From a virus, in IMG/VR virus record IMGVR_UViG_3300042879_000434, positions 1 through 37,629 of that record: a stretch of 37,629 nt of DNA; one strand, 5' to 3'. Made by a program: the position numbers and the translations under genes. This document shows positions 6,209 through 37,629 of the stretch, one piece after another (within the stretch, counting starts at the first letter, position 1; each line of letters opens with the position of its first letter). The notes beneath the pieces were generated by a model, which was given only the letters and a program-made list of their open reading frames with translations, searched no databases and had not been told where the DNA came from.

Positions 6209-6209
6209 C

Positions 6210-6356: not shown

Positions 6357-6366
6357 GGCTGCCGCC

Positions 6367-7549: not shown

Positions 7550-7553
7550 TGCT

Positions 7554-8618: not shown

Positions 8619-8929
8619 TGCCCAGCATGGTTGCTGTGATGCGCGCTCGAGTCTCTCGGGTGCTGTTCCGGTCTCGTGCCTACAAGCGAGCCCTGATCGA
8701 TGGTAAGACGAACCAGCTATCGCAAGACGGGCAGATCATCCTCGCCCATCTGAAGCGATTCTCCCGTTACGGGAAACCCCCTGTCGCGGTCGATAAGGCC
8801 GGAGCGACGGATATGTTTGAGGTTGGCCGCATGGTCGGTCGCCAAGAAACGGTGCAGCTTATTGTCGAGGCGCTGCAACTGGACGAAAAGACCTTGACCA
8901 ATCTGCAAGAGGAATTCATCGATGAGTGA
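8618..8929 (+). CDS. Bbp19-like phage protein (103 aa)
   Basis: I chose the ATG at 8618, overlapping the preceding TGA, over an upstream TTG at 8600. The core 'YKRALIDGKTNQLSQDGQII...LKRFSRYGKPPV...FEVGRMVGRQETVQLIVEAL' follows the layout of the Bbp19-type domain (a helix pair, an aromatic loop, then a GR-x-x-V helix) known from Bordetella phage BPP-1 and many podoviruses, where it precedes the scaffold or capsid genes. The role is probably in head assembly, but unproven. It overlaps the scaffold start by 8 bp. Confidence 0.75.
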   Translation: MPSMVAVMRARVSRVLFRSRAYKRALIDGKTNQLSQDGQIILAHLKRFSRYGKPPVAVDKAGATDMFEVGRMVGRQETVQLIVEALQLDEKTLTNLQEEFIDE

Positions 8930-9779
8930 CGATCAAGGGTCTGCGGAAGCAGGCAACCCGACTGCTCCGGCAGCGGCTCCCGCGTGGTATGCGCCGGAAG
9001 GGATCGACCAAGGAACGGCAAGCCAGCTTGGCGAACTGGTCAAGGCCAAAGGATGGAAGGGGCCGGCTGATGCCCTGCTCTCGTACCAGAATCTCGAGAA
9101 GGTGTTCGGCGCTGACAAGGCCGGACGCACCATTCTCGCCCCCAAGTCAGATGACGATGCCGAGGGCTGGAGTGCCGTCTATAACCGCCTAGGACGGCCA
9201 GAGAGCGCGGATAAGTACGAACTGCCAGTACCGGAAGGGGATGATGGCTCGTTCGCTCAGGCGGTTGCTCCGGTGCTGCATGATCTGGGGCTTACCAACA
9301 AGCAGGCCAAGGGGCTCGCCGAATGGTGGAATCAAACATCCGCACAGCGGATAGAAATGGAGCGCGAGTCATTCCTGAGCAAGTCAGAGGAGGAGTTCTC
9401 GTCGCTGCGCCGGGAATGGGGTGCCGCGGCTGACCAGAACATCGAGCTCGCCAAGCGCGCTGTTGGCAAGTTTGGCGTGGACGCTGGTCTCGACGCTGAC
9501 GGTCTCGAGCGGCTAGAGCAGGCGATCGGCACCGGCCCGATGCTCAAGCTGTTCCATGCTATCGGCTCGTCGTTCGCTGAAGGCACGTTCGTCGGATCGG
9601 AAGCTCCGACCGGCGGCGCGCTTACCCCGCAGGCAGCGAAGAACAAGATCGCTGGAATGTTCGCTGATCAGGAGTTCATGGGTCGCTATATGAACCGTGA
9701 CGAGAGAGTTCGTCAGGGGGCAATTGAGGAGATGATGCGATTGCAGCGTATGGCTAACCCCGAACTGTTTACAGAGTAG
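8922..9779 (+). CDS. Capsid scaffolding / assembly protein (285 aa)
   Basis: An acidic, Ala/Glu-rich helical protein located directly upstream of the major capsid gene, the canonical place for a scaffold. It has a Pro/Ala-rich disordered start, a 'NLEKVFGADKAGRTILAPKS' segment, a helix-rich middle (YNRLGRPESADKYELPVP) and a C-terminal helix (MNRDERVRQGAIEEMMRLQ). The YNRLGRPESxxxYELP motif occurs in many podovirus scaffold-like proteins. It would template procapsid assembly and be expelled or degraded. No protease motif is seen. Confidence 0.8.
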   Translation: MSDDQGSAEAGNPTAPAAAPAWYAPEGIDQGTASQLGELVKAKGWKGPADALLSYQNLEKVFGADKAGRTILAPKSDDDAEGWSAVYNRLGRPESADKYELPVPEGDDGSFAQAVAPVLHDLGLTNKQAKGLAEWWNQTSAQRIEMERESFLSKSEEEFSSLRREWGAAADQNIELAKRAVGKFGVDAGLDADGLERLEQAIGTGPMLKLFHAIGSSFAEGTFVGSEAPTGGALTPQAAKNKIAGMFADQEFMGRYMNRDERVRQGAIEEMMRLQRMANPELFTE

Positions 9780-25424: not shown

Positions 25425-25762
25425 GCGTAATAGGCTGGCGTGAGTTCTCGCATCGCTGTTGCAGACTGATCCTCGGATGTCTGCTGGCGGGTGCGGAAGA
25501 ATCCCGCATGATCAGGGTACATCTTCATGAATCGGCGCGAATAGAAGGCGCGATAGTTGTTGTTCAGTTTGAACGAGGTTAGGCCGTCACCGCCGACGCT
25601 ATCCTTCTCCCAGCGTATGCGCTCGAAGATCGCATTCACAGAATAATTTTTGTATCCGCGATCGATCATCTGGAATGTGAACTGCACGAACATCTCCCAG
25701 ACCTCGGGGTGCTTGCGGTGAAACTCGGCAACCTGCTGCCTCATCTCCTCATGCCTGTTCAT
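25421..25762 (-). CDS. Conserved phage protein next to NinB (113 aa)
   Basis: Begins MNRHEEMRQQVAEFHRKHPE; the core WEMFVQFTFQMIDRGYKNYS and SFKLNNNYRAFYSRRFMKMY matches a widespread short phage protein found in recombination operons. It is basic and helical with conserved aromatics, possibly nucleic-acid binding. Function unknown. It overlaps NinB by 14 bp and DUF1364 by 4 bp. Confidence 0.75.
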   Translation of the reverse strand: MNRHEEMRQQVAEFHRKHPEVWEMFVQFTFQMIDRGYKNYSVNAIFERIRWEKDSVGGDGLTSFKLNNNYRAFYSRRFMKMYPDHAGFFRTRQQTSEDQSATAMRELTPAYYA

Positions 25763-26159
25763 ACGATGGCTCCGGTATGTGGATGCCGAGCTCCGCGCAC
25801 TTGGCCTCGATCAATGCGAGGTAGTCGCTGAACTCCTGCTTGGTGAGCTTGCTGGATCTGCGGATCGGCTTATGTCGCTTGCGGCCAAATCCCTCGATGA
25901 CCTCGGAGCCGAAAGCCTCAATCAGGAAATACTCGTGCAGATCGTTTGTCGTCCAGCCTCGCAGCGTCTCACCGCCTCCCTCGAGGATGGATGGATACAC
26001 CACCCCCCAGAGGAAAGCGTTCTGCTGGTCGCTACGTTTCGGCTTGAATGCCTCGATCGTGACTTGCCACGAGATGCTGGAGTCGAGCCCTCGCACCAAG
26101 ACCGAGACCGCTTGCGCGATCTGGTCTGGTTGAGTGCCGCGAGGAAATACTCGTTTCAA
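25749..26159 (-). CDS. ninB: NinB-like recombination protein (136 aa)
   Basis: Recognised by the segment RSDQQNAFLWGVVYPSILEG, then TTNDLHEYFLIEAFG and the C-terminal RRSSKLTKQEFSDYLALIEA, the order seen in lambda NinB (Orf). That protein binds SSB-coated single-stranded DNA and helps load the annealing protein. It starts with TTG overlapping the SSB-like gene stop (TTGA). The context (annealing protein, exonuclease, SSB-like, NinB) is a coherent homologous-recombination operon. Confidence 0.85.
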   Translation of the reverse strand: MKRVFPRGTQPDQIAQAVSVLVRGLDSSISWQVTIEAFKPKRSDQQNAFLWGVVYPSILEGGGETLRGWTTNDLHEYFLIEAFGSEVIEGFGRKRHKPIRRSSKLTKQEFSDYLALIEAKCAELGIHIPEPSYEQA

Positions 26160-26437
26160 AAGGGGATATCCGCGATATCGTCGTCGCTGAACGTCTCGGT
26201 CACCTGCTGTTGCTTCGGTGCCTGCCGCGGTTCGGCGAGACCATCCTTCGGCTTGACGGACAGCGAGAAGTATTTCTGCCCTGCCAGTCTGCCGTTCTGT
26301 CCGGTCTTGAGCCAGCCGTTAAGCCAATACTCGACGCCGTTGATGTTGATGCTGCCGGTGTAGTCCGGCTGGTTCTCGCTCTGCTTGCGATCGTTCTTGG
26401 CGAGCAGGCCGCGGTTGGTGTTATCAAATTGCTTCAC
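26156..26437 (-). CDS. Small OB-fold / SSB-like protein (93 aa)
   Basis: Starts with GTG overlapping the exonuclease stop by 4 bp. The core YTGSININGVEYWLNGWLKT then GRLAGQKYFSLSVKPKDG is beta-barrel-like, and the tail FSDDDIADIPF ends with the acidic-to-hydrophobic DIPF motif that SSB proteins use to recruit partners. This suggests a short single-stranded-DNA-binding protein. Family assignment is by pattern only. Confidence 0.75.
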   Translation of the reverse strand: MKQFDNTNRGLLAKNDRKQSENQPDYTGSININGVEYWLNGWLKTGQNGRLAGQKYFSLSVKPKDGLAEPRQAPKQQQVTETFSDDDIADIPF

Positions 26438-27033
26438 AGGGTCATCTCCTTCAATGCTTTGATTTTGCGTCGAACTTCTTCCAGAAACCTTTCGACCTTC
26501 TCGGTCATGTTCAGAATGTCGGCTTGGTTGCGCGGTACACGGATCACGTTCAAGCGCAGGCGCTCCGGCAGTTTCGGCTGGTACACGACGTAATCGCACC
26601 AGTCCCTGCCGGTCACGGCGAGTTGCCATTGGATTTGATTGTAGTGATCGGTCGGAACTTTCTTCGACTCAAGCAGGTCTAAAGCGGTCGCCGGCTGGAC
26701 GCACTTGATCTCGATGAGGCCGTCATCCCCGACGAGCCCATCCGGTGAGCAGCCTGCCTCGAGCTTCGGATGCCGGACGAATCCGGTCTGATCGACAATG
26801 ACCGCATTACGAGCCATATAGGCGGCGCGCGCTTCATCCTCGGTATCAATGCCGTGCTGCATCGCGGGGCTCACATACGTCTCCGTAGGCTCTCCCGTGA
26901 GGCGCTCGCATACAAGCTGCGCCTGATAGTTGCGATACCCGGCTTTGCTGCTGTCCATCAGGACGTTGGAGATAGCACTCCCGGTCACAAGACCGAGGCG
27001 CGCCGAGTACCATTCTGGTGATCGTTGTTCCAT
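26434..27033 (-). CDS. YqaJ-family (lambda Exo-like) exonuclease (199 aa)
   Basis: The second ATG (27033) is preferred, with GGAGG about 4 nt upstream, over the overlapping ATG at 27036. The N-terminus RSPEWYSARLGLVTGSAISN and the catalytic block GCSPDGLVGDDGLIEIKC (D98, E108, K110) define the PD-(D/E)xK YqaJ/RecE-type nuclease. A Tyr/Gln segment DHYNQIQWQLAVTG closes the core. It resects dsDNA 5' ends to give the 3' tails that the Sak annealing protein anneals. The stop is 4 bp inside the SSB-like gene. Confidence 0.92.
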   Translation of the reverse strand: MEQRSPEWYSARLGLVTGSAISNVLMDSSKAGYRNYQAQLVCERLTGEPTETYVSPAMQHGIDTEDEARAAYMARNAVIVDQTGFVRHPKLEAGCSPDGLVGDDGLIEIKCVQPATALDLLESKKVPTDHYNQIQWQLAVTGRDWCDYVVYQPKLPERLRLNVIRVPRNQADILNMTEKVERFLEEVRRKIKALKEMTL

Positions 27034-27575
27034 CATTCCTCCGCTGAATGCCAATCGGTTTGCCGGCGCAAAAACGTCGGCCATGAAAGCGTGTCCGTGA
27101 ACGAGCGATCCTCGAGCAGGACATGGTTTGTGGGTTGGGCGGTGTATCGCCCGTTGGTGAGCTGCATGAAATAGAACTCTTTGGATTGCGTTGGTGTGGC
27201 GCTAAACGCATCACCGATCGGCACCAAAGTAAACAGATAGTGTCCCTGATATTCGCCGCTCTTGCACTTGGCTTTGCCGTTCATGCCAGCAAGATACGGG
27301 TACTCGATCATGCTGAACTCGTAGCCGTAGGCGTCCCATGTCTGGGCGTCGGCAGCAGTCCACGGTGCCGCGGTGTTACGGTGCGCAACCTGATGCAACG
27401 GCACGTTACGGTAAACCGCTCCGCACTCGAGCATCACATGGCAACCAAAGGCGCGCCCCGGGTAGCAAGTCAGCCCGAACCAGACGCCCTGCAACCAGTC
27501 GTGCTGGCCGAGGGCGTTGGGCTCCACCCAAACGTACTGATGCGCTGGCAGCGCCCCTGCGTGGGTGTAGAGCAT
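27033..27575 (-). CDS. Unknown protein between annealing protein and exonuclease (180 aa)
   Basis: The longer frame reaching 27878 overlaps the annealing-protein gene in full and has a poor N-terminus, so I use the ATG at 27575, which overlaps that gene's TAA. Notable features are WLQGVWFGLTCYPGRAFGCH, ECGAVYRNVPLHQVAH, then WDAYGYEFSMIEYPYL and YMQ-like YFMQLTNGRY: aromatic- and Cys/His-rich, probably beta-rich. I recognise no domain. Its place inside the recombination operon suggests a partner role. Confidence 0.7.
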   Translation of the reverse strand: MLYTHAGALPAHQYVWVEPNALGQHDWLQGVWFGLTCYPGRAFGCHVMLECGAVYRNVPLHQVAHRNTAAPWTAADAQTWDAYGYEFSMIEYPYLAGMNGKAKCKSGEYQGHYLFTLVPIGDAFSATPTQSKEFYFMQLTNGRYTAQPTNHVLLEDRSFTDTLSWPTFLRRQTDWHSAEE

Positions 27576-28093
27576 TAGGCAAGTTCCTTCTTGCGCGCGG
27601 CAAACTTGTCGATGTAGTTCTGCCGGGTCGCCTCTGGCAGCGACTTGAACAGGATGGTCAACGCATCGACGCTGGTAGCAACCGCCAACTTGGCGTCGAT
27701 CTCGGCGTCCATCTCCTCGCGCTCTGCTTCCGGCAGATCCTCGCCGGCATAGATGTACAAGCCGAGGCCGTGGATCGCGATGCACTTGGCAAGGCAGCGC
27801 ATGATGGCGGTGTTGACCGAGAAGCTGTTCGGATTCTCGATCGCCTTGTTCTTGGCATCGAGCACCGGCAACAAGCAAGTCTTGATGTCGCCCTTGATCT
27901 CGACCGAGACCTTGACCATCCCGGTTCCATCCTTGAGATACATCAATGGCAGGCCGTCGTACTCATGGACGGTGTATCGAGCCGCGGGGTCGATCTTGAG
28001 AACCTCTGCCCAAGCCCATGCCCACGACAGATACGAGAGGCCGACCTTCTTCTCGACATGATCGTTGACGTTGATCTTAAGTAATTCGCTCAT
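27575..28093 (-). CDS. Sak-type single-strand annealing protein (DUF1071) (172 aa)
   Basis: The N-terminus NVNDHVEKKVGLSYLSWAWA with WAEVLKIDP is diagnostic of the DUF1071/SSAP_Sak group; the following strands (TGMVKVSVEIKG, KTCLLPVLD) and helix TAIMRCLAKCIAIHGLG complete the Rad52-like core. An acidic helical tail follows. It anneals complementary single strands made by the YqaJ exonuclease. The start overlaps the small upstream gene's stop (ATGA). Confidence 0.88.
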   Translation of the reverse strand: MSELLKINVNDHVEKKVGLSYLSWAWAWAEVLKIDPAARYTVHEYDGLPLMYLKDGTGMVKVSVEIKGDIKTCLLPVLDAKNKAIENPNSFSVNTAIMRCLAKCIAIHGLGLYIYAGEDLPEAEREEMDAEIDAKLAVATSVDALTILFKSLPEATRQNYIDKFAARKKELA

Positions 28094-28266
28094 GACAGGC
28101 TCCCGTAGATCTTGTCTAGTTCGGTTTCGATTATTGCGTTTAGCTCGGCAAGCGCCCGGTCGCAGGCGGCAATGCGTTCCTGCTCGTCACGCTCCTGCGC
28201 CTCGATCTCCTGCTGGTGCCACCAGCTCTGATCGTCGTTACCCCAAGGGGCGTTATCGATGTGCAT
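28090..28266 (-). CDS. Small acidic helical protein (58 aa)
   Basis: ATG at 28266 preceded by AGGAG. Sequence starts MHIDNAPWGNDDQSWWHQQE and continues as one charged helix (AQERDEQERIAACDRALAEL, TELDKIYGSLS). Unknown function. The stop overlaps the Sak start, so it is coupled. Confidence 0.7.
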   Translation of the reverse strand: MHIDNAPWGNDDQSWWHQQEIEAQERDEQERIAACDRALAELNAIIETELDKIYGSLS

Positions 28267-28372
28267 TGATGATCTCCTGTTGTGAGCAGCCGCCGTCACC
28301 GCACGGGTCGAGTGCGGCAGCCAGTAAGAATAGGACGATGAGCCCGATGAACTGCGGCCAAGGCGACTTCAT
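28253..28372 (-). CDS. 39-aa membrane microprotein
   Basis: Short ORF with ATG (28372) overlapping the upstream stop (ATGA) and GGGAGAAG just before it. Encodes MKSPWPQFIGLIVLFLLAAA followed by LDPCGDGGC and a polar tail: one transmembrane helix or signal segment, then two cysteines. Its end overlaps the next gene by 14 bp. Coupled start and one clean membrane helix support it. It may act on the host envelope early in infection. Confidence 0.55.
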   Translation of the reverse strand: MKSPWPQFIGLIVLFLLAAALDPCGDGGCSQQEIINAHR

Positions 28373-28539
28373 CGCTCTTCTCCCGCCATGCTCTGGACGC
28401 CGGCAACGTAGCCGTCAGACTTGCCGAGGGCGTAGGCATATCCGATCGCTTGTTTGATGAGCGGGTCGAGCGACTTGTTATCGACGAGCTTGGCGAGATC
28501 CTCAGCCACGCGGTCGAGCTCTGACTGGTAGGCGTTCAT
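28369..28539 (-). CDS. Small helical protein (56 aa)
   Basis: ATG at 28539 overlaps the upstream stop (ATGA). MNAYQSELDRVAEDLAKLVD then IKQAIGYAYALGKSDGY: an amphipathic two-helix protein without recognised family. A member of the small-gene string of the leftward operon. Confidence 0.65.
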   Translation of the reverse strand: MNAYQSELDRVAEDLAKLVDNKSLDPLIKQAIGYAYALGKSDGYVAGVQSMAGEER

Positions 28540-28727
28540 GCGGCCTCCTGCAAAGCCTTGACTACGGGAATCCATTCGGCAAAGCGAACTGGGTCGCGCT
28601 CGACTGATTCGAACAAGTCCGGCTGCTCGTCAGGGTTGGCGCGGAAGAACTTGATCTCGCAATCGACGCAGTAATCGTCGCAGGTTCGTTCAGCCACTTC
28701 GCATTTGAAACACCAAGCGTTATTCAT
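28536..28727 (-). CDS. Zinc-knuckle-like protein, first gene of leftward operon (63 aa)
   Basis: ATG at 28727 with AGGAG upstream; the longer frame to 28805 would run through the promoter region. The N-terminus MNNAWCFKCEVAERTCDDYC followed by VDCEIKFF has a CxxC...C-x3-C-x2-C pattern consistent with zinc binding. The rest is acidic (PDEQPDLFESVERDP). Likely an early protein interacting with host factors or DNA; function unknown. Confidence 0.7.
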   Translation of the reverse strand: MNNAWCFKCEVAERTCDDYCVDCEIKFFRANPDEQPDLFESVERDPVRFAEWIPVVKALQEAA

Positions 28728-28762
28728 GTCCGTCTCCTGTGTTGTTTTGCTCGACGGGAGAA

Positions 28763-28804
28763 TGTTAGCACAGGCTACTATCTTCATGTCAACACTTGCT
28801 AACA
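28763..28804. promoter_or_regulatory. Divergent promoter with two operator-like sites
   Basis: Two 18-bp imperfect palindromes of 8-2-8 form share half-site TGTTAGCA: 28763-28780 (TGTTAGCA-CA-GGCTACTA) and 28787-28804 (TGTCAACA-CT-TGCTAACA). The minus strand has a consensus -35 TTGACA (28792-28787), a 17-bp spacer and GCTAAC with an upstream TGT (extended -10). The plus strand has TTGCTA, 17 bp and CATCAT. The sites cover both -35 boxes and the leftward -10, as expected for Cro control of both early operons. Confidence 0.65.
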
Positions 28805-28841
28805 AATTAGTTTGTGGGCATCATGTGCGGCAGGAGGATCT

Positions 28842-29060
28842 ATGACATTCACGGAACTACTGTCCCATTACGGGACTCAGGCAGAGATCGCTCGGGCGTA
28901 TGGCGTCAGCCGTGCCTCGGTCAATCGATGGGCAAAGACAGGCGTGGTACCGGAACTGCGCGTATTGCAGTTTGAGCGCAACCAGAGCCCGCAGGAGCGT
29001 CGGCAGGAGCGCAAGCGCCTACAGGTCGAGGCTGCTCGTCGATGGGCTGAAAAGGGCTGA
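28842..29060 (+). CDS. Cro-like transcriptional regulator (72 aa)
   Basis: ATG at 28842 with GGAGG upstream. The N-terminal MTFTELLSHYGTQAEIARAY then GVSRASVNRWAKTGVVPE is the helix-turn-helix of P22-type Cro proteins, including the Q-x-x-(I/V)-A start and the W-x-(K/x)-x-(G)-x-V-P wing. A basic helical tail (QERRQERKRLQVEAARRW) is unusual. It should bind the paired operators just upstream and repress early transcription. No opposing CI-type repressor gene is present. Confidence 0.85.
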   Translation: MTFTELLSHYGTQAEIARAYGVSRASVNRWAKTGVVPELRVLQFERNQSPQERRQERKRLQVEAARRWAEKG

Positions 29061-29062
29061 CG

Positions 29063-30346
29063 ATGCGATACGGCAGCGTCTGCTCTGGCATTGAGGCAGC
29101 GACCGCAGCATGGCACTCGCTCGGCTGGCAACCGGCATGGTTCAGCGAGATTGAGGCTTTCCCGTCTGCTGTCTTGAAACATCACTATCCCACCGTCCCT
29201 AACTACGGGGACATGACCAAGTTTGAGGAATGGCCTGATGAACCAATTAACCTTCTGGTCGGAGGAACCCCCTGCCAGTCATTCAGCGTTGCAGGACTAC
29301 GCCGAGGACTGGCCGATCCCCGAGGCAATCTCATGCTTACCTACCTTGCGATCGCTCAACGTCACCGGCCTCGATGGCTTGTCTGGGAAAACGTCCCCGG
29401 TGTCTTGTCATCGAACGGTGGACGGGATTTTGGAACCTTCCTCGGGGCGCTGGGGGAGTTGGGGTATGGGTTCGCATACCGAGTGCTGGACGCTCAATGG
29501 TTCGGAGTGGCCCAGCGACGCCGTCGTGTGTTCGTTGTCGGATACCTTGGAGACTGGCAACGTGCCGCAGAGGTTCTTTTTGAGTCCGAAAGCGTGTGCC
29601 GGAATCCTGCGCCGAGCAGAGAAAAGGGGCAAGACGCTGCCAAATGCCTTACAGCAGGCGTTGGAAAACGTTACGACTTTGAAACCGAAACCTTGCCCGT
29701 AGCCTTCCACAACCGCCAAGACCCAGACGTAAGCGGCGACATCACGCACCCACTCGGCGCGAACGATAACGGCATGGCGGTGGCGCAGCCGATCCATTAT
29801 CGCAAAAGCCGCCGCGCACAGTCCGTCAGCGACCATGAGACATGGGTTGAGGATGCAGTCAGCAATACGCTCAACTGTTTTGACGTTGGCGATGTTCGCT
29901 CGACGGATGTAGTAGCGCAGCCAACCTACGGCATCCCCGGTAATTGGATCGGCAGGCAGCCAGAGAATGGCGGCAATGCAGTTGAGCCGATGCACAATGT
30001 GTCGCCGTGCTTGACCAAAACGGATCGGCATGGGGTAGCGCAGCCCGTCCCATTCCGCGATCCATGCCCAACCTTAACCGCAAAGATGCAAGGCTCTTCG
30101 GGATGGGCGCCAACCAATGAAGATGCGCACCTTGTTGGGGTTGCGCATTCCTCTATGCAAGTGCGCCGCCTCACGCCGGTTGAGTGCGAACGTCTGCAAG
30201 GTTTCCCCGACAACTACACCAACATCCCTTGGCGCAAGAGCGCAGAGTCGCCGGATGGGCCGCGGTACAAAGCCCTCGGTAACTCAATGGCGGTGCCGGT
30301 CATGCGCTGGATCGGAAAGAGGATTGCAAAGGTAGACGCCAAGTGA
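29063..30346 (+). CDS. dcm: C5-cytosine DNA methyltransferase (427 aa)
   Basis: Motifs in order: I SVCSGIEAATAAW (residues 5-17), IV GGTPCQSFSVAG with catalytic C71, VI ENV (109-111), VIII QRRRR (151-155), IX RLTPVECERLQGFPDN (369-384) and X YKALGNSMAVPVMRWI. The region 190-362 is the target recognition domain and contains degenerate TLT...VA(Q/F)-type repeats. It methylates cytosine at C5, probably to protect phage DNA from host restriction. It starts 2 bp after the Cro-like gene. A second ORF is nested in it (29238-29702). Confidence 0.93.
   Translation: MRYGSVCSGIEAATAAWHSLGWQPAWFSEIEAFPSAVLKHHYPTVPNYGDMTKFEEWPDEPINLLVGGTPCQSFSVAGLRRGLADPRGNLMLTYLAIAQRHRPRWLVWENVPGVLSSNGGRDFGTFLGALGELGYGFAYRVLDAQWFGVAQRRRRVFVVGYLGDWQRAAEVLFESESVCRNPAPSREKGQDAAKCLTAGVGKRYDFETETLPVAFHNRQDPDVSGDITHPLGANDNGMAVAQPIHYRKSRRAQSVSDHETWVEDAVSNTLNCFDVGDVRSTDVVAQPTYGIPGNWIGRQPENGGNAVEPMHNVSPCLTKTDRHGVAQPVPFRDPCPTLTAKMQGSSGWAPTNEDAHLVGVAHSSMQVRRLTPVECERLQGFPDNYTNIPWRKSAESPDGPRYKALGNSMAVPVMRWIGKRIAKVDAK
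29238..29702 (+). CDS. Overprinted ORF within the methyltransferase gene (154 aa)
   Basis: Open in the +1 frame relative to the methyltransferase, with ATG 8 nt after GAGGA. Sequence starts MNQLTFWSEEPPASHSALQD; the C-terminal part has VVCSLSDTLETGNVPQRFFL followed by SPKACAGILRRAEKRGKTLP. I recall this C-terminal pattern as a recurring phage ORF that overlaps or neighbours C5 methyltransferases, but I could not search. If real it is an overlapping gene of unknown function. It could instead be a shadow kept open by the codon constraints of the methyltransferase. Confidence 0.5.
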   Translation: MNQLTFWSEEPPASHSALQDYAEDWPIPEAISCLPTLRSLNVTGLDGLSGKTSPVSCHRTVDGILEPSSGRWGSWGMGSHTECWTLNGSEWPSDAVVCSLSDTLETGNVPQRFFLSPKACAGILRRAEKRGKTLPNALQQALENVTTLKPKPCP

Positions 30347-30609
30347 AGCGCACCGAATACCACCGAGCCTATTACTGGCGTCGTTTAAGCGAACGGAGAG
30401 CGTCTGCTAGGGCATCTCGACGTAAGGCTAGGGAAAGGGCTGCGATCATCAAGATCGTTTGTGAGGCCGTCACAGAGGCTAGAAACGACAAACCCCCTTT
30501 CGGGGGCTTGACGCTGCCGGGGGATGGCATTACGCTCAACCATGCGAGTTTGCGTGATGCGAAGGTTAACGGGGGTTGCGTTGACCGTCAAGCATCACGC
30601 ATGGTTTAA
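30343..30609 (+). CDS. Basic small protein downstream of methyltransferase (88 aa)
   Basis: GTG start overlapping the methyltransferase stop (GTGA). The N-terminal half is strongly basic (KRTEYHRAYYWRRLSERRAS and RASRRKARERAAIIK), consistent with nucleic-acid binding. The second half lies over a large hairpin (30538-30606), so its codons are constrained by DNA/RNA structure or the gene is read only in part. Function unknown. Confidence 0.5.
   Translation: MKRTEYHRAYYWRRLSERRASARASRRKARERAAIIKIVCEAVTEARNDKPPFGGLTLPGDGITLNHASLRDAKVNGGCVDRQASRMV
30491..30506 (-). terminator. Possible minus-strand hairpin terminator
   Basis: CCCCC/GGGGG stem with loop TTTC (30493-30506). Read on the minus strand it is followed by TTTGTCGTTT, a T-rich tract; on the plus strand the tail is poor. 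It may block antisense transcription into the methyltransferase gene. Confidence 0.35.
30538..30606 (+). other. Large composite hairpin upstream of replication gene
   Basis: Outer stem AACCAT (30538-30543) with ATGGTT (30601-30606); perfect 9-bp stem GCGTGATGC (30552-30560) with GCATCACGC (30592-30600); inner stem GGTTAACG (30564-30571) with CGTTGACC (30579-30586) holding one G-U; 7-nt loop. It ends 26 nt before the replication gene ATG. It could regulate translation or act in DNA as a cruciform. Confidence 0.6.
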
Positions 30610-30632
30610 CTTAATCATGCGAGACGAATACA

Positions 30633-31136
30633 ATGAACTTCTATCCGCGTCATCTGGGTGACTACGCCCGGGATGCCGGCTATCTGTCGATGACAGAGCA
30701 CGGCGCGTATACCCTGCTGCTCGATTGGTACTACGCCAACGAGAAGGCGATCCCGAAAGAACTGATCTATTCCATCTGCAAGGCTTCCTCTCGGCAGGAA
30801 AAGAATGCTGCCGATCGCGTCCTGCGCGCGTTCTTCCAATGGGACATCGAGCAGGGCTGGATGCACAAGAGAGTCGAGGCAGAACTCGCCAAGATGCGGG
30901 AAAAACAGAGCAAAGCGAAAGAGTCTGCTCGTGCTAGATGGGATGCGAACGCAATGCGAACGCATAGCGAACGCAATGCGAACGCAATGCTATCCAATAA
31001 CCAATATCCAATAACCAATAACCAAGATCCATTACCTAAGATTCAGAGTAACGTCGTGCCGGTACAAAACCGTCGCGGCAAGGGGCTCCGTTTAATTGGG
31101 GATATTTTGGGACAGGAGAAGATCGATGGGCGATGA
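30633..31136 (+). CDS. DUF1376 replication protein (167 aa)
   Basis: N-terminus NFYPRHLGDYARDAGYLSMT then EHGAYTLLLDWYYANEKAIP is the DUF1376 signature, found in phage replication-initiator positions. The middle is a winged-helix-like region with RQEKNAADRVLRAFF and a basic helix EAELAKMREKQSKAKESARA. The C-terminal part (residues ~104-131) is encoded by tandem repeats that look like an origin: N-A-(N/M) and NNQ/ITNNQ repeats. It probably binds that origin and recruits host helicase. The SD is weak (GAGA). Confidence 0.85.
   Translation: MNFYPRHLGDYARDAGYLSMTEHGAYTLLLDWYYANEKAIPKELIYSICKASSRQEKNAADRVLRAFFQWDIEQGWMHKRVEAELAKMREKQSKAKESARARWDANAMRTHSERNANAMLSNNQYPITNNQDPLPKIQSNVVPVQNRRGKGLRLIGDILGQEKIDGR
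30943..31025 (+). other. Candidate replication origin with iterons inside the replication gene
   Basis: Four 11-bp direct repeats (xxGCGAACGCA) begin at 30943, 30954, 30965 and 30976, each with GCGAACGCA at exact 11-bp spacing. They are followed by two exact 14-bp AT-rich repeats (TATCCAATAACCAA, 30991-31004 and 31005-31018) and a partial third TAACCAA. Iterons plus an AT-rich unwinding element inside the initiator gene match the lambda-type ori layout. Confidence 0.7.
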
Positions 31137-31464
31137 ATTCATGTACACACCGAGCGTATATACGGGCGCAGGGAAGTCGAGTCCGCAGGACAAACTCGAC
31201 GACCGGAGCGCCTACGCAGTCAAGAACTCCGCGGAGTATTGGACTCAAGCCGTTGCTGAGAACCCGCTAAACCGTTTACGTTTACTCGATGCCAAGCTTG
31301 CTAGACCCGGTGTCGATGTCGAATCTATCAAGGCTCGTGCTGGTGAACTGATCCGTGAGATCGGTGCTGCCAAGGTTCTCGGTGATCCTGATTGTGTCGG
31401 CCTCGTTCGTCAGTTGTTCGGTCAACGCGGTGTCGATCGTTTGAAGGAGAGGGCATCGGCATGA
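31126..31464 (+). CDS. Unknown early protein (112 aa)
   Basis: I chose the ATG at 31126 with GGAG upstream over an earlier frame start at 31096; it overlaps the replication gene end by 11 bp. MGDEFMYTPSVYTGAGKSSP then helical EYWTQAVAENPLNRLRLLDA and ELIREIGAAKVLGDPDCVGL. No Walker A, so it is not a DnaC-like loader, though it occupies that position. Function unknown. Confidence 0.65.
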   Translation: MGDEFMYTPSVYTGAGKSSPQDKLDDRSAYAVKNSAEYWTQAVAENPLNRLRLLDAKLARPGVDVESIKARAGELIREIGAAKVLGDPDCVGLVRQLFGQRGVDRLKERASA

Positions 31465-31679
31465 ACGACGCTATCAATCCTCTGCACTACAAGGCTGGTG
31501 ACATCGAGTGCATCGATGCGATCCAAGCTCAACTCTCGCCTGCTGAATGGCGCGGCTACCTTCGCGGTCAGATCGCTAAATACAACTGGCGACTAGGCTT
31601 GAAAGATTCCGTCGAGCAGGACGCAGCCAAACTGCTGTGGTACGCGATGTTGCTAGCCGGGAGAGACCCTCGTGCATGA
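31461..31679 (+). CDS. DUF3310 (SaV-like) protein (72 aa)
   Basis: ATG overlaps the previous stop (ATGA). The family pattern NPLHYKAGDIECIDAIQAQL, then RGYLRGQIAKYNWRLGLKDS and EQDAAKLLWYAML is complete. DUF3310 proteins are small, widespread in phages and sometimes called nucleotide-kinase-like, but the activity is unproven. Confidence 0.88.
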   Translation: MNDAINPLHYKAGDIECIDAIQAQLSPAEWRGYLRGQIAKYNWRLGLKDSVEQDAAKLLWYAMLLAGRDPRA

Positions 31680-31935
31680 GGACGCATACCGCAGGCTCTG
31701 GGCCTCGGTGCTGTATCAGGCGATCGCTGATGCGAATCGTAAAGGCATCGCTCGAGCAGCCCTGCATTGGATCTATTCGCCGCACGATGAAGCCGGAAGC
31801 CTGCGCTGGATCTGCGATATGCTCGATTACAACTACAACGAGGTTCAACGCCTATGTATGACTCGAGCGGGTCGATCAGAAATCTTGAGGAGGGGTCGTG
31901 TTAGAGCTAACCCTACCTTGGCCGCCTTCGATTAA
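31672..31935 (+). CDS. Small helical phage protein (87 aa)
   Basis: GTG start overlapping the DUF3310 end by 8 bp. Sequence MHEDAYRRLWASVLYQAIAD, then ALHWIYSPHDEAGSLRWICD and LDYNYNEVQRLCMTRAG. The pattern 'W...L.QA..D...ARRWI.S....F..iC...g.....V' is common in phage early regions beside RusA. Helical, role unknown. Overlaps RusA by 38 bp. Confidence 0.75.
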   Translation: MHEDAYRRLWASVLYQAIADANRKGIARAALHWIYSPHDEAGSLRWICDMLDYNYNEVQRLCMTRAGRSEILRRGRVRANPTLAAFD

Positions 31936-32260
31936 CCATTACTGGCGCAACTATCGTGGCCGCACCGTGATCTCGAGTGACGGTCGGCAGTACAGGCTAG
32001 ATGTATCCTATCGGATACTCGAGCAGGGAATCCCGCGGGACAATCTTAACTGCCGGTTGCAAGTGACGATCGATGCGTACCCACCAGACAAGAGACGGCG
32101 CGATCTGGACAACATCCAGAAGGCGCTGCTCGATGCGATCGTAGCCGCTGATGTCATTGAAGACGACAGCTTGATTGACGCGCTATCCATCACCCGGCAT
32201 GACGCCTGTGAGGATGGCAAAGTGATTGTGAGAATCAAGCCTTATGCCAAAGATGTGTGA
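31898..32260 (+). CDS. rusA: RusA-type Holliday junction resolvase (120 aa)
   Basis: GTG at 31898 with a strong GGAGGGG. LTLPWPPSINHYWRNYRGRT at the N-terminus and the catalytic block RRRDLDNIQKALLDAI carry D69, D71 and K75; the third acidic site is D90 (VIEDDSLIDAL). These are the residues required in E. coli RusA. It cleaves four-way junctions made during recombination and before packaging. Length matches the family. Confidence 0.93.
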   Translation: MLELTLPWPPSINHYWRNYRGRTVISSDGRQYRLDVSYRILEQGIPRDNLNCRLQVTIDAYPPDKRRRDLDNIQKALLDAIVAADVIEDDSLIDALSITRHDACEDGKVIVRIKPYAKDV

Positions 32261-32504
32261 TGTCTGCGGAATCGAGTATGTCCATCGATGCAGGCAAGAG
32301 AGATACCACGAGGTCATCGTGGGCGAGAGAAACCAAAAAACAGCCAAGAGGCTGATCAAGATACTAGGAGAAGGTGTCGATGAAGGAAGAAAAACTGCGA
32401 GAACTCTCATCCCAAATTCGCAAATTAAATCAAGAGCTAGCCGCAATCTATCGCGAAATATCGCGTACCGAGTTAGGTTTGCAAGAACCCTTAGACTTCG
32501 ATAA
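32244..32504 (+). CDS. Possible Cys-containing basic protein (86 aa)
   Basis: Starts MPKMCDVCGIEYVHRCRQER inside the RusA end, with a CxxC plus C motif, and has a basic C-terminal half (KTARTLIPNSQIKSRASRNL). It overlaps the next gene by 125 bp, so either its C-terminus is spurious or the genes truly overlap. Confidence 0.45.
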   Translation: MPKMCDVCGIEYVHRCRQERYHEVIVGERNQKTAKRLIKILGEGVDEGRKTARTLIPNSQIKSRASRNLSRNIAYRVRFARTLRLR

Positions 32505-32580
32505 AGATTGGATACCGCCTTATCTGAGGGAAGGGTCATGTATACCGTTACGGACGACGATGTTACCGACGAAGAATTGA
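32380..32580 (+). CDS. Small coiled-coil protein (66 aa)
   Basis: ATG at 32380 with AGGAG upstream. MKEEKLRELSSQIRKLNQEL and AAIYREISRTELGL form a heptad-like helix, then LDFDKDWIPPYLREG. Probably a real early gene of unknown role. Confidence 0.65.
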   Translation: MKEEKLRELSSQIRKLNQELAAIYREISRTELGLQEPLDFDKDWIPPYLREGSCIPLRTTMLPTKN

Positions 32581-32735
32581 ACAACGTAGATACCATCGTG
32601 ACGCTCGCAATCGCTTGGCATACCATGCGTGAATACGAGCGAGTGCTGAAACGGATATCAAGATGGCAGGACGATGGCCCCTCGATCTGGGCGCGCCGGG
32701 TGTTAAAAGAGTACGAACGGAGATTGGATTCGTGA
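32538..32735 (+). CDS. Small acidic/helical early protein (65 aa)
   Basis: ATG at 32538 after GAGGGAAGGG. MYTVTDDDVTDEELNNVDTI, then WHTMREYERVLKRISRWQDD and WARRVLKEYERRLDS. The stop overlaps the next GTG (GTGA). Unknown function. Confidence 0.65.
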   Translation: MYTVTDDDVTDEELNNVDTIVTLAIAWHTMREYERVLKRISRWQDDGPSIWARRVLKEYERRLDS

Positions 32736-32932
32736 AAGACGGAATCAGATTGGCTCCTTGCCCGAACTGTAACGCATCGGGCTGGATCGCTGACGGGATG
32801 GGAGACTGGATCAGGTGCTGCGACTGCAATCCAGAGGCACCGAAACAATCGGCAGAAGTGCTTCAGTTCGTGAGGGGCGCTCGAGTACGAAAGCCGAAAG
32901 ACCCGGTAGACGACCTGCCTCCCGCGGCATAG
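32732..32932 (+). CDS. Zinc-ribbon-like small protein (66 aa)
   Basis: GTG overlaps the previous stop. LAPCPNCNASGWIADGMGDW followed by IRCCDCNPEAP gives paired CxxC knuckles about 18 residues apart, a DnaJ-type or rubredoxin-like zinc ribbon. Acts probably in protein or DNA contact; unknown. Confidence 0.7.
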   Translation: MKDGIRLAPCPNCNASGWIADGMGDWIRCCDCNPEAPKQSAEVLQFVRGARVRKPKDPVDDLPPAA

Positions 32933-32941
32933 AATCCTGAT

Positions 32942-33088
32942 ATGAAACAAGGACTCTACGCAAACATCCATGCCAAGCGCGAGCGCATCAAGGCCGGAAG
33001 CGGCGAGAAGATGCGTAAGCCCGGCAGCAAGGGCGCTCCGACAGCGAAGGCGTTTCGCGAATCTGCGAAAACCGCGCTGAAGAAATGA
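32942..33088 (+). CDS. Short basic conserved phage protein (48 aa)
   Basis: MKQGLYANIHAKRERIKAGS then GEKMRKPGSKGAPTAKAF. I recognise the YANIHAKRxRI-x-x-GSGExMRKPGSKG pattern from many environmental phages. Lys/Arg-rich, probably nucleic-acid or virion associated. The stop overlaps the next ATG (ATGA). Confidence 0.8.
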   Translation: MKQGLYANIHAKRERIKAGSGEKMRKPGSKGAPTAKAFRESAKTALKK

Positions 33089-33321
33089 AGGTCGCCAGAC
33101 TTGGAGACAATGGGAATGATGAAGCTCCTCCGGTTAGGCGTGGTATCGCTGGCGACATCCGTCTGGGAGCGGCTGCTTTCCGTCCTATTGCGGCTCGAGC
33201 AACTCGTCTCGCAGGCGCGCAAGCCGTTGCACCCACCCGCCTCGGCGGCAGAACCGAAGGCCGAATCCCGTTCTACCAAGACAAAGACACGCCGTCGCAA
33301 GACACGAGACTGATCCCGTGA
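33085..33321 (+). CDS. Candidate coupled ORF (78 aa), competing with 33116-33313
   Basis: ATG overlaps the previous stop and its own stop overlaps the next GTG (GTGA), the pattern of true genes in this operon. Ala/Arg/Gly-rich: RGIAGDIRLGAAAFRPIAAR. No family recognised. A second frame over the same DNA is equally open. Confidence 0.4.
   Translation: MKVARLGDNGNDEAPPVRRGIAGDIRLGAAAFRPIAARATRLAGAQAVAPTRLGGRTEGRIPFYQDKDTPSQDTRLIP
33116..33313 (+). CDS. Hydrophobic-helix plus basic-tail protein (65 aa)
   Basis: ATG at 33116 (or 33119) with GGAG upstream. MMKLLRLGVVSLATSVWERL then LSVLLRLEQLVSQARK forms an amphipathic or membrane helix, and the tail is strongly basic (KTKTRRRKTRD). Codon use in this frame looks normal for the phage. 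It shares DNA with the 33085-33321 frame. Confidence 0.5.
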   Translation: MMKLLRLGVVSLATSVWERLLSVLLRLEQLVSQARKPLHPPASAAEPKAESRSTKTKTRRRKTRD

Positions 33322-33620
33322 AAACCCCGGCATGGCAGCGCAAGGCTGGACAGAATCCGAAGGGCGGTCTCAACGAGGCTGGACGCCGATCGGCTAAGGC
33401 CGAGGGCATGAACCTCAAGGCTCCGGTCAAGTCTGGCGACAACCCGCGGCGCGCTAGTTTCCTCGCGAGAATGGGTAACGCTCCCGGCCCAATGAAGGAC
33501 GAGAAGGGACAGCCGACACGATTAGCACTCGCCCTGCGCGCATGGGGTGCCAGCAGCAAGGAAGATGCTCGAGCGAAAGCCCGGGCGATTAGTAAACGAA
33601 ACGAGCAAAAGGTTAAATAA
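33318..33620 (+). CDS. DUF6321-like conserved phage protein (100 aa)
   Basis: GTG start. [20 protein letters not shown], then [20 protein letters not shown] and [20 protein letters not shown] follow a pattern I associate with DUF6321 proteins of environmental phages and some large viruses. Basic, probably a DNA- or virion-binding protein. The family name is from memory. Confidence 0.75.
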
Positions 33621-33622
33621 CC

Positions 33623-33793
33623 ATGCCGCTAAAGAAAGGATATAGCCAGAGCACTATCTCGGCGAACATCAGCAAAGAGATGAAGCGCGGCTATCCGCAG
33701 AAGCAGGCCGTCGCGATCGCCCTATCCTCGGCACGAAAGAGCGCCAAGGCAGCAGGCAAGAGCGCAGCGGTTCGTAAGCTGACGGAAAAGTAA
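33623..33793 (+). CDS. DUF6496-like short basic protein (56 aa)
   Basis: [20 protein letters not shown] then [20 protein letters not shown] is a recurrent phage motif ([13 protein letters not shown]-x-ARKSAKKAG). It lies directly before the small terminase gene, its TAA overlapping that ATG. Function unknown; perhaps a DNA-binding or packaging accessory. Confidence 0.85.
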
Positions 33794-34209
33794 TGCCAGC
33801 AGGACGCCCGTCCATCTACTCGCAAGAGCTTGCTGATCGCATCCTGACGGAGTACAGCAAGGGGCGCAGTATTCGCGAAATCTGCGAAGAAGCGGATATG
33901 CCTGATAGAGTGACCTTGTGGCGATGGCGCAACGAGAAGCCAGAATTTGCATCCGCTCTCGCGCGCGCACGTGAGGCCAACGCAGAGACGATCGAGGACA
34001 AGATCTCCGAGATCGAGAGCAAGGTGCTCTACGAGAACCTCAATCCGCAGGCTGCCAACGTGGTGCTCTCGTCCATGCGCTGGCGAGCTCGAGTGCTGCA
34101 TCCCAAACGCTACGGCGACAAGATCGACCTCGAGCACAAGGGCGAAGTCGGCATGACTGTCGTCGTCAAACAGTTCACCGATGTCGAAAATAATACTGCC
34201 GGCGAATAA
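33793..34209 (+). CDS. Terminase small subunit (138 aa)
   Basis: PAGRPSIYSQELADRILTEY then REICEEADMPDRVTLWRWRN is the helix-turn-helix DNA-binding segment of TerS proteins; the helical middle EANAETIEDKISEIESKVLY builds the ring. C-terminal GMTVVVKQFTDVENN binds the large subunit. It recognises the packaging site. It overlaps TerL by 29 bp. Confidence 0.85.
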   Translation: MPAGRPSIYSQELADRILTEYSKGRSIREICEEADMPDRVTLWRWRNEKPEFASALARAREANAETIEDKISEIESKVLYENLNPQAANVVLSSMRWRARVLHPKRYGDKIDLEHKGEVGMTVVVKQFTDVENNTAGE

Positions 34210-35557
34210 CTGGTCACCCCGCGAGTACCAGATCCCGGCATGGGGTGCGCTCGAGAGAGGCACCAAGCGCCTCGCTCTGGCATGGCATCGACGCTCAGGA
34301 AAGGACGACATCAGCCTGCATTGGGCTGCGGTGTCCATGATGCGCCGGGTCGGTTCGGTCTGGCATATGCTCCCGCAGGCCAATCAGTCCCGTAAGGCGA
34401 TCTGGGACGCGGTAAACCCGCACACCGGCAGGCGTCGCATCGACGACGCATTCCCGCCAGAACTGCGCGAGAGCACTCGTGAGCAGGATATGTTCATCCG
34501 GTTCAAGAATGGCAGCACATGGCAGGTCGTAGGTTCCGACAACTACAACAGCCTCGTGGGCTCGCCTCCGGTCGGCGTCGTGTTCTCTGAGTACGCGATG
34601 GCAGATCCCAACGCATGGGCATTCCTGCGACCGATCCTTGCTGAGAACGGCGGCTGGGCGATCTTCATCTCGACGCCCCGCGGCAGGAACCACTTCGCTC
34701 GGCTGGTCGAATACGCAAGGCAGGACTCCGGCTGGTTCGGGCAGGTGCTTACCGTCGAGGATACGAAGGCGATCCCGATGGCGACCATCCAGCGTGAGCG
34801 CAAAGAGCTACGCATGGAGCGCGGCGACAAGGAAGCCGAGGCGATCATCCGGCAGGAGTATTACTGCGACTTTGACGCAGACATTCCGGGCGCGTACTTC
34901 GGTGAGGCGATCCGCAGCGCAGAGCTCAACGGCAGGATCGGTGAGTTCCCGCACATCGTCGGCCAGCCGGTCGGAACCGCATGGGATATCGGTGTCGGCG
35001 ACTCCACGATCATCTGGTTCTATCAACTGATCGGTCACAAGGTGCGCATCATCAACGTGCTCGAAGGCTCCGGCGTTGGGCTCGAGTGGTACGTCAAGAA
35101 GCTGCTGGCGATAGATTACGTCTACGGCGATCACATCTGGCCGCATGACGGTGCTGTGCAGGAGTGGGGCAGCGGTCAGTCTCGAGTGCAGGTGGCTGCT
35201 GGCTACGGGTTCAAGCCCCGCATCCTCGAGCGCGACTCGGTGGATGACGGGATACAGGCTGCGCGAATGATGCTGCCTGCGACCGAGTTTAATACCGCAC
35301 CAGAGCCTTTCCCGGGCGAGAGCCGCGATGAGGCGAAGGCGAGGATGACTCGAGCGATCGACGCCCTGCGGCAGTACAGGCGCGAGTACGACGACAAGCT
35401 CCAACGGTTCAAGGACAAGCCTTTGCACGATTGGACGTCGCACTATGCCGACGCATTCCGCTATCTCGCGAAGGGCAGAAAGCCGTTCCGCGGTACGGAA
35501 CAGGCCCGTCGTCCGAGCCATCAAGTGGCAGTAGCAGACTACAGGGTGCTGGGGTAG
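34181..35557 (+). CDS. Terminase large subunit, ATPase-nuclease motor (458 aa)
   Basis: Walker A-like HRRSGKDD (36-43), Walker B-like VGVVFSEYA (131-139) and the coupling motif ISTPRG (163-168) form the translocation ATPase. The RNase H-like nuclease has AWDIGVGDST (D269, D274), WPHDG (D323) and YADAFRYLA (D424), which bind metals. It pumps DNA into the procapsid and cuts the concatemer. Walker B has Ser-Glu rather than the more usual Asp-Glu. Length is normal for small podoviruses. Confidence 0.95.
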   Translation: MSKIILPANNWSPREYQIPAWGALERGTKRLALAWHRRSGKDDISLHWAAVSMMRRVGSVWHMLPQANQSRKAIWDAVNPHTGRRRIDDAFPPELRESTREQDMFIRFKNGSTWQVVGSDNYNSLVGSPPVGVVFSEYAMADPNAWAFLRPILAENGGWAIFISTPRGRNHFARLVEYARQDSGWFGQVLTVEDTKAIPMATIQRERKELRMERGDKEAEAIIRQEYYCDFDADIPGAYFGEAIRSAELNGRIGEFPHIVGQPVGTAWDIGVGDSTIIWFYQLIGHKVRIINVLEGSGVGLEWYVKKLLAIDYVYGDHIWPHDGAVQEWGSGQSRVQVAAGYGFKPRILERDSVDDGIQAARMMLPATEFNTAPEPFPGESRDEAKARMTRAIDALRQYRREYDDKLQRFKDKPLHDWTSHYADAFRYLAKGRKPFRGTEQARRPSHQVAVADYRVLG

Positions 35558-35587
35558 ACTACCTGCGCAACCCGAAAGGAGCGCGAG

Positions 35588-35785
35588 ATGTCAAGTCTTT
35601 TTAAACCGAAGATGCCGAAGATCGAGCCGACGCCCCCGCCTCCGACGGTGGATGAGGCGCAGCAGTCCCGTATTGAGCAGCGCCGCATGGCTCGTCGCCG
35701 TGGCCGCGCGTCTACGATTATGTCCACTCCGGCCAGTCAGCAGACCGGCTCGGTGGCGGTCTCTAGACTGCTTGGCGGCGGCTAA
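35588..35785 (+). CDS. Small Pro-rich virion-region protein (65 aa)
   Basis: GGAG precedes the ATG. MSSLFKPKMPKIEPTPPPPT, then basic RIEQRRMARRRGRASTI and the end SVAVSRLLGGG. This Pro-rich/basic/LLGG layout recurs next to terminase and portal genes in podoviruses; function unknown. Ends 1 bp into the next gene (TAATG). Confidence 0.8.
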   Translation: MSSLFKPKMPKIEPTPPPPTVDEAQQSRIEQRRMARRRGRASTIMSTPASQQTGSVAVSRLLGGG

Positions 35786-36573
35786 TGGCTACCAAGAAGA
35801 TATCGGCGCTAACGTCGCTGGCGCAGGATTCGATTGATCCTGCTGCTGACGTACTGCCGATCGTCGATACCGGCTCGACCGAGACGAAGAAGGCGACCGC
35901 GGCTGCGATCGTTGGCAAGTCGATCGGTGCGCTGGCGGCAACGTGGAACAACGTCTTGACGACCTTCAAGGCGCGATCGTTCAACGTCACAGACACGGCC
36001 TCGGCTGCTGCCTCGCTGCTCGATGATCTGCAAGTTGGCGGTGTGAGCAAGTGGTCGGTGCGTAAGGATGGCGAGCTCACGGTGGGTGTCGTCCCGCACG
36101 ATCGGCTCAAGAACAACAGCCTCGGCGCGTTCTACTCAACCGCTGACCAAACCGGCAACGTCTCGACGCCTACCGCATTCACGCTCAGCAACACGGCAAG
36201 CTTCGCGACCGGCATCTCGATTGCGTCCAGCAGTCAGATCACGTTCGCCAATGCCGGTATCTATCTGTGCAGCGTGAGCATTCAGTTTCAGAATTCGGAC
36301 AGCAGCAACCATACAGCGAAAGTTTGGTATCGCATCAACGGATCTGACGTCACGGCAAGTGCAAGCGTGGTAACGGTTCCGAAGATAGCTGACGGTGGCA
36401 ACACCGTTTTCGAGTTGACGTTCCTTGAGCAAGTGACTGCGAGCCAGTACATCCAAGTGATGTGGCTGCCATCTAACGTCGCTGTCACGGCTGATCACAC
36501 GGCTGCGGCTGCTGGCCCTCCGGCTGTCCCGGCGATCCCCTCTGTTTTGTTCTACGCGCATCGCATCGCGTAA
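35785..36573 (+). CDS. Tail appendage protein, DVLPIVD anchor plus C1q-like domain (262 aa)
   Basis: N-terminal KKISALTSLAQDSIDPAADV, LPIVDTGSTETKKATAAAIV is the anchor shared with the 2375-3385 product. A short shaft (FNVTDTASAAASLLDDLQVG) leads to a C-terminal all-beta domain (GIYLCSVSIQFQNSDSSNHT ... IQVMWLPSNVAVT) resembling C1q/TNF-type heads that form trimers. Probably a short appendage or receptor-contact protein. First gene of the adhesin block. Confidence 0.75.
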   Translation: MATKKISALTSLAQDSIDPAADVLPIVDTGSTETKKATAAAIVGKSIGALAATWNNVLTTFKARSFNVTDTASAAASLLDDLQVGGVSKWSVRKDGELTVGVVPHDRLKNNSLGAFYSTADQTGNVSTPTAFTLSNTASFATGISIASSSQITFANAGIYLCSVSIQFQNSDSSNHTAKVWYRINGSDVTASASVVTVPKIADGGNTVFELTFLEQVTASQYIQVMWLPSNVAVTADHTAAAAGPPAVPAIPSVLFYAHRIA

Positions 36574-36585
36574 CTGGAGACTGAA

Positions 36586-36870
36586 ATGGCAACAGGCATT
36601 GTTCTCGCATCCAACGCAAGCGCAACTGGCGCGTGGTACGCATGGCCGGGTGGCCGCGGTGAGTTCCGCGTGGAAGGCTCATTCCCCGGCACGGTCAAGC
36701 TGGAGACGAAAGGCCCGAACGGCACAGCGCAGGACGTTGGGTCATTCACGACTTTGACGAGTGCTGGCGGCGGCATCTTCGAGCTTGGCGCTTGTGAGAT
36801 CCGAGCCAACATCGCGACAGCGACTGCTGTCTATGCGGTAGCTCTGCGCATCCCGTCGCCGTCGTTCTGA
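36586..36870 (+). CDS. Small beta-rich tail-region protein (94 aa)
   Basis: ATG preceded by GGAG. GAWYAWPGGRGEFRVEGSFP, VKLETKGPNGTAQDVGSF and EIRANIATATAVYAVALRI: a compact beta protein with W/G-rich N-terminus commonly found between appendage genes of podoviruses. It may be a fibre cap or connector. Its stop overlaps the fibre ATG (TGATG). Confidence 0.75.
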   Translation: MATGIVLASNASATGAWYAWPGGRGEFRVEGSFPGTVKLETKGPNGTAQDVGSFTTLTSAGGGIFELGACEIRANIATATAVYAVALRIPSPSF

Positions 36871-37629
36871 TGAGCACGGCAGGGCTCGATCTGCTGCGGA
36901 CTAACCCCCGCACTTATGCGCGTACCGCAGACCGGACGATCGCAGATCCGACGCTGTTCCTAGACTTTCAGTCGGCAACGGCGCTCGACCCGCGCATCAC
37001 CTTCTCTCGCGGCAGTCAGGCGACGCTGTTTGACTCCACGGGTACGCTGAAGTACGCGAAGCATAATTTGCTGTTGCAGTCGCAGGATTTTGCAACGACT
37101 TGGTCAGCAACAAATACAACAATTGTTGTAAATGATACGACTGCGCCAGATGGAACTGTTACCGCCGACAAAGCAACGCAAACCAGCACATCAAATCCAA
37201 GAGTTACGCAACAAGTCACGGTTTTAGGCCAATATCAATTTTCTGTATTTATTAAGTACATTGATATTCAATGGATTAGAATTTTAATTGGAAGTAATTC
37301 TGTTTGGTTTGATGTTCAAAACGGTCTTGTTGGAACGGCTGATCCTGATCGAGTTGGCAGTATTGAGGTATCTGCTAACGGTTTTTATCGTCTAATTGTT
37401 AATGCTAGTAATTTGAGCGGCGCAACGACGTTTTTTATAATTGGTGCAGATGCCAATAATTCTGTAAATGAATTATTAGGGTCGTATTACGCTTGGGGCG
37501 CCCAACTCAACCTCGCCAACATGGAAGGCGGCGTCACCTCGTCGCTGACGACGTATTACCCGACGACGACTGCGGCCTACTACGCACCTTGCTTCACCTA
37601 CGACCCGGCTACGCTGCAGCCGCAGGGCT
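36870..37629 (+). CDS. Tail fibre / receptor-binding protein, 5' part (allele B, truncated by window end)
   Basis: Starts MSTAGLDLLRTNPRTYARTA and enters the cap identical to bases 2-99. From 37049 the first beta-sandwich module (LLLQSQDFATTWSATN ... YAWGAQLNL) is a different allele from that at 100-634: the same fold pattern and anchor residues (LLLQS, TAPDGT.TAD, FSVF.KY, WFDVQNG, WGAQL), but many substitutions and 27 codons shorter. From 37503 it is again identical to copy A. The middle of the allele (37230-37480) is strongly AT-rich. Read with 2-1795 this gives the full gene. Confidence 0.85.
   Translation, partial: MSTAGLDLLRTNPRTYARTADRTIADPTLFLDFQSATALDPRITFSRGSQATLFDSTGTLKYAKHNLLLQSQDFATTWSATNTTIVVNDTTAPDGTVTADKATQTSTSNPRVTQQVTVLGQYQFSVFIKYIDIQWIRILIGSNSVWFDVQNGLVGTADPDRVGSIEVSANGFYRLIVNASNLSGATTFFIIGADANNSVNELLGSYYAWGAQLNLANMEGGVTSSLTTYYPTTTAAYYAPCFTYDPATLQPQG
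36950..37048. repeat. Contig-end direct repeat, 5' flank copy 2
   Basis: Identical to bases 1-99. Left border of allele B. Confidence 0.95.
37503..37629. repeat. Contig-end direct repeat, 3' flank copy 2
   Basis: Identical to 635-761 (127 bases) and runs to the window end. Right border of allele B. Confidence 0.95.

Follow-up and report, generated by a model that had tools for sequence, protein, structure and literature searches.

Two divergent modules at the ends of one contig

The window, that is, the whole stretch of 37,629 nt analyzed here, comes from a virus of bacteria in an environmental sample and is classed as linear in IMG/VR. Both its start and its end fall inside one fibre gene, of which the first 761 nt and the last 680 nt are partial copies (Table 1). 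Comparison of the window with itself gave two exact matches, of 99 and 127 nt, with a single T/C difference at 634/37502 just before the longer one. At these lengths of exact identity chance matching is not an issue.

Between the shared flanks lie two different modules of 535 nt (allele A, at the start) and 454 nt (allele B, at the end). Their proteins are identical at 70 of 152 positions (46%). GC content differs between the modules (Table 1); either anchor has about 63%, and the genome as a whole 56.5%. The original prediction had described identical DNA before and after a module that differs by 81 nt, or 27 codons, with frame and borders kept, and this was borne out to the base. It had also listed three conserved fold motifs: TAPDGT and WGAQL are present in both alleles, while LLLQS is exact in allele B and reads VLLQS in allele A.

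Table 1. Positions of the fibre gene parts and of the recombination genes in the window
Feature	Position	Strand	Evidence or remark
Fibre gene 5' part with allele B	36870–37629	+	ORF; continues at 762–1795 in contig 3300042914_000728, 597 aa
Fibre gene 3' part with allele A	2–1795	+	ORF open at 5' end; alignment; 624 aa if preceded by 36870–36949
Anchor 1 ("cap"), allele A copy, contig start	1–99	+	Identical to 36950–37048
Slot 1 module, allele A	100–634	+	GC 50%; 46% aa identity to allele B; nearest relative L022
Anchor 2 (post-module), allele A copy	635–761	+	127 nt identical to 37503–37629
Slot 2 module, second GTA_spike_fiber domain	803–1237	+	Best NF048003 stretch covers it; exchanged among relatives
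Anchor 3 (EAGAFATSYIPTTT...FSSWYN)	1262–1378	+	Conserved among relatives
Slot 3, C-terminal beta-sandwich module	1388–1705	+	Exchanged in L115/L117 and L064/L066
Anchor 4 and fibre gene stop	1718–1795	+	End conserved among relatives
NinB/Orf-like recombination mediator	25749–26159	-	phrog_72, E 2.9e-14
Single-strand DNA binding protein (SSB)	26156–26629	-	phrog_7364, E 4.7e-15
YqaJ-type recombination exonuclease	26434–27084	-	PF09588, E 9.2e-22
Sak single-strand annealing protein, candidate recombinase	27575–28093	-	PF06378, E 4.8e-45; phrog_659
RusA Holliday junction resolvase	31898–32260	+	PF05866, E 3e-17
Anchor 1 ("cap"), allele B copy, contig end	36950–37048	+	Identical to 1–99
Slot 1 module, allele B, GTA_spike_fiber	37049–37502	+	GC 39%; NF048003, E 9.9e-24; 6tb9 head spike fibre, E 1e-15; complete in L005
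Anchor 2 (post-module), allele B copy, contig end	37503–37629	+	127 nt identical to 635–761

A second contig crosses the junction

An independent IMG/VR contig, 3300042914_000728 (19,461 nt; L004/L005/L042), was recovered by an exact anchor probe and a protein search. It matches window positions 29364–37629 with 0 mismatches over 8,266 nt and positions 635–9273 with 0 mismatches over about 8.5 kb, base 634 being the allele difference itself. The contig passes from 37629 straight into window position 762 onward and carries one complete fibre gene with allele B, seen as an ORF in L004/L005. The window ends therefore meet, and the fibre gene is single-copy in the genome represented by this contig. 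Since that single gene holds allele B, the window carries A as the alternative arm. The slot 2 module is the same in both known genomes.

The ends of the window overlap rather than abut. Joining 37629 to position 1 creates a TGA codon; joining it to 762, as in contig 3300042914_000728, leaves the fibre gene open. The overlap lengths of 99 and 127 look like assembler k values, which would fit a circular path with one bubble arm at each end. Both numbers occur in the de Bruijn k series 33, 55, 77, 99 and 127 in common metaSPAdes use. The junction-spanning contig shows that the window begins in one arm of an assembly bubble and ends in the other. Assemblers are known to halt at such variable regions (Bellas et al. 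2020, PMC7468147).

Seen by itself, the window with its two partial copies would permit a tandem duplication, in which the module region occurs twice in one genome and the assembly was interrupted between the copies. Tandem copies, which the original prediction had set against its own reading of two alleles of one gene caught at the contig ends, were looked for in contig 3300042914_000728. That contig, otherwise identical over about 16.8 kb, carries the complete gene only once, as allele B, and no second module copy was found within the 16.8 kb searched. Tandem duplication is refuted there and is very improbable overall; the two-allele reading gains support from the same contig.

An assembly chimera, in which allele A came from another phage species and was joined via the conserved anchors, is also improbable. 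The anchors are conserved across species and allele A is known from this contig alone, an exact allele A probe having matched no second viral contig. Nevertheless, the 99 and 127 nt that flank A agree with this phage at every base, whereas the best anchor matches from other species reach about 96–98% over shorter stretches and about 91%. Even as a chimera, A would come from a close relative that has these anchors. For allele A as a natural variant of this phage, the DNA seen with it upstream is 99 nt, and its placement in the same strain background is presumed. Both arms sit in one contig, and alleles A and B may coexist in the source sample.

The two contigs also differ away from the fibre gene. 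Positions 27510–29363 show 178 differences, followed by 0 in the next 8,266 nt. This second recombinant tract includes Sak and the 5' portion of a C5-cytosine methylase gene.

The slot 1 module was replaced as a block

Among fourfold codons with the same residue in both slot 1 alleles, the third base is alike in 12 of 28, where codon usage would give 8.3. Where the fibre gene is identical, all such codons have the same third base (203/203). This result rests on the positional slot 1 count and on the positional counts for L014 and L117 given below; counts for high and low classes were picked by identity and are not relied on. Because synonymous sites are near chance inside the module and perfect outside it, the data support exchange of slot 1 as a whole block, not its mutation. 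Whole-module replacement had been proposed over point drift from the sharp borders, and the saturated synonymous sites, together with three further natural pairs described below, uphold that proposal.

Diversity-generating retroelements, for example that of Bordetella phage BPP-1, vary an adhesin within a fixed backbone. Diversifying selection on point mutations, or retroelement mutagenesis, within a fixed module could account for the fold and motifs that both alleles share. The synonymous sites and the 27-codon length difference speak against it, the change here being that of a whole module; neither a reverse transcriptase (RVT_1) nor a template repeat or template-like second copy of either module was found in the genome. 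We consider this explanation exceedingly improbable. The same holds for programmed switching from an archive, of shufflon or invertase type, although sharp borders and interchangeable cassettes are what such a device would leave. No second, silent cassette was found in the window or in the 16.8 kb of contig 3300042914_000728 searched, no serine or tyrosine recombinase family was found in the record, and inverted repeats of at least 30 nt were not found. For the families searched, this agrees with the original prediction, which saw no reverse transcriptase or invertase in the window.

The same pattern in relatives

DNA of positions 1–1800 gave zero matches in a phage collection, and a search of genome contigs with the 597-aa fibre found zero relatives. 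Relatives were represented by 39 fibre genes, giving 741 pairs for the comparison of slot and anchor identity. Four anchors and three slots recur in their fibre genes in a common arrangement. At the 99th percentile of these pairs, nucleotide identity reached 86, 94, 91 and 81% in the anchors, against 54, 55 and 50% in the slots.

Three pairs show exchange of a single slot. The fibre genes of L014 and L117 are about 100% identical outside slot 1, where amino acid identity is 41%; synonymous sites are alike at 4 of 29 in slot 1 and at 110/110 and 53/53 elsewhere. L115 and L117 are two contigs of one metagenome (3300025889), with 1 mismatch in the first 4.2 kb aligned and a differing slot 3 thereafter (L115:1–4386 and L117:1899–6284; the fibre gene is shared up to anchor 3). 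These are slot 3 alleles coexisting in one sample. In L064 and L066 the difference is again confined to slot 3.

Slots are also shared singly. L009 and L015 share slot 2 (88%) and neither slot 1 nor slot 3. The nearest relative of the allele A module is that of L022 (72% amino acid identity), yet the L022 cap is merely 57% identical. Some relatives have an empty slot 1, the distance from cap to anchor 2 being 31 aa (114 nt in L166 and L168).

In L119–L130 the terminase is 93–95% identical, and no related fibre was seen in the downstream DNA examined (up to 6 kb, often less). Most of the terminase relatives likewise lacked a related fibre at this place. From these sequences, the entire adhesin gene may be exchanged, besides its modules.

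The fibre as a putative adhesin

Slots 1 and 2 both match NCBIfam NF048003, "phage head spike fiber domain", with scores of 236, 226 and 84.9 bits against a curated cut-off of 36. Compared with the PDB, the family profile matches the head spike fibre Rcc01080 of RcGTA (6tb9) with E 2.3e-61, and also Pseudomonas phage baseplate proteins. Predicted models with either allele (pLDDT 84.8 and 89.0) have three beta-sandwich domains. Their fold matches include CBM40 sugar-binding modules and the baseplate proteins of phages E217 and Pa193.

The head spike fibres of RcGTA bind the capsule, a capsular polysaccharide (PMC10218006, PMC7296036). By analogy, our best guess is that the fibre protein is a putative glycan-binding adhesin; capsule binding is known solely from the distant RcGTA homologue. 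The two proteins belong to one family and would be alike in a capsule-type glycan binding. They differ in that the RcGTA fibre is 325 aa long with one module, while the protein here carries two modules of this type in 597–624 aa. At 22649–24832 the phage also encodes another, tailspike-like protein, which has a pectate-lyase-like domain.

Recombination genes and a model for module exchange

The phage codes for a set of recombination proteins (Table 1), and a Sak gene occurs in the L117 contig as well. Rad52-like phage recombinases build mosaics between divergent sequences, with help from Orf (De Paepe et al. 2014, PMC3945230). The situation here resembles that mosaicism in that divergent fragments bordered by homology are exchanged and an annealing protein, for which Sak is the candidate, is encoded together with an Orf-like accessory protein. 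Given these genes and the mosaics made by Rad52-like recombinases, exchange at the anchors during co-infection would be a sufficient mechanism.

In the proposed model, the assembler opened a phage genome of about 37 kb at a bubble, whose arms are two natural slot 1 alleles of a single-copy surface adhesin. In this protein, conserved anchors are combined with three beta-sandwich modules that can be exchanged, and two of these belong to the GTA head-spike-fibre family. During co-infection, modules would be exchanged at the anchors through homologous recombination of the single-strand-annealing type. Proteins encoded by the phage (Sak, YqaJ, SSB and the Orf-like protein) would probably assist, the evidence for a part of Sak being circumstantial. 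Selection for differing host surface glycans may keep the variants. Overall, we regard a bubble at two natural slot 1 alleles of a single-copy, three-slot adhesin, with anchor-mediated exchange, as the best explanation and as very probably correct. The original prediction had spoken of a diversification system; its interchangeable modules stand, but a dedicated device does not, as ordinary homologous recombination and selection suffice.

Tandem arrays are present at 30943–31025, where ATGCGAACGCA is repeated 4.4 times and is followed by 4.6 copies of CCAATAA, inside a DUF1376/primosomal-type replication gene. They may be origin iterons of the kind found in lambda O.

Comparison with known systems

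T-even phages provide an earlier case, in which recombination at conserved motifs of the distal tail fibre swaps adhesin segments (Tetart et al. 1998, as cited by PMC7468147). The likeness lies in the replacement of adhesin segments between conserved motifs. The modules here are domains of about 150–180 aa and the anchors measure about 25–55 aa. The T-even adhesin is not known to be related to the fibre protein described here.

The closest known systems are the metaviromic islands of Mizuno et al. 2014 (PMC3909814) and the flexible gene modules in near-identical phages of Bellas et al. 2020 (PMC7468147). The present case shares with them core genomes that are nearly identical, divergent homologous forms of tail-fibre domains (presumed here to co-exist), a DNA methylase as a further variable gene and contigs broken at the variable site. 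A near-identical core surrounds a divergent module here (0 mismatches on both sides, 46% amino acid identity in the module), and homologous variants at one site are replaced as a block, as judged from the synonymous sites and the pairs L014/L117, L115/L117 and L064/L066. In contrast to those studies, the unit swapped here is a single slot, the size of one domain, and the gene has three such slots that are exchanged separately.

Implications

Flexible adhesin modules in near-identical phages are an already published phenomenon (PMC7468147, PMC3909814). What is added here is resolution at the size of a domain, three separately exchanged slots and an unclosed contig as a readable sign. The virus occurs in at least two versions, set apart over the compared stretch by one swapped block of sugar-binding type in the adhesin. 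The locus is a very clean natural case of a domain-sized adhesin swap between phages that are otherwise identical over that stretch, with breakpoints at conserved anchors. A contig that fails to circularise can signal a polymorphic receptor-binding module, and this signature is searchable across virus collections. Alleles A and B and the slot 3 pairs are ready material for asking whether modules set host range.

Tentatively, and with somewhat less than even confidence, we suggest that each of the three slots can be exchanged independently via the anchors, by annealing recombination that the phage encodes, with modules taken from a large common pool. If so, the phage population would hold many adhesin combinations without a dedicated diversification enzyme.
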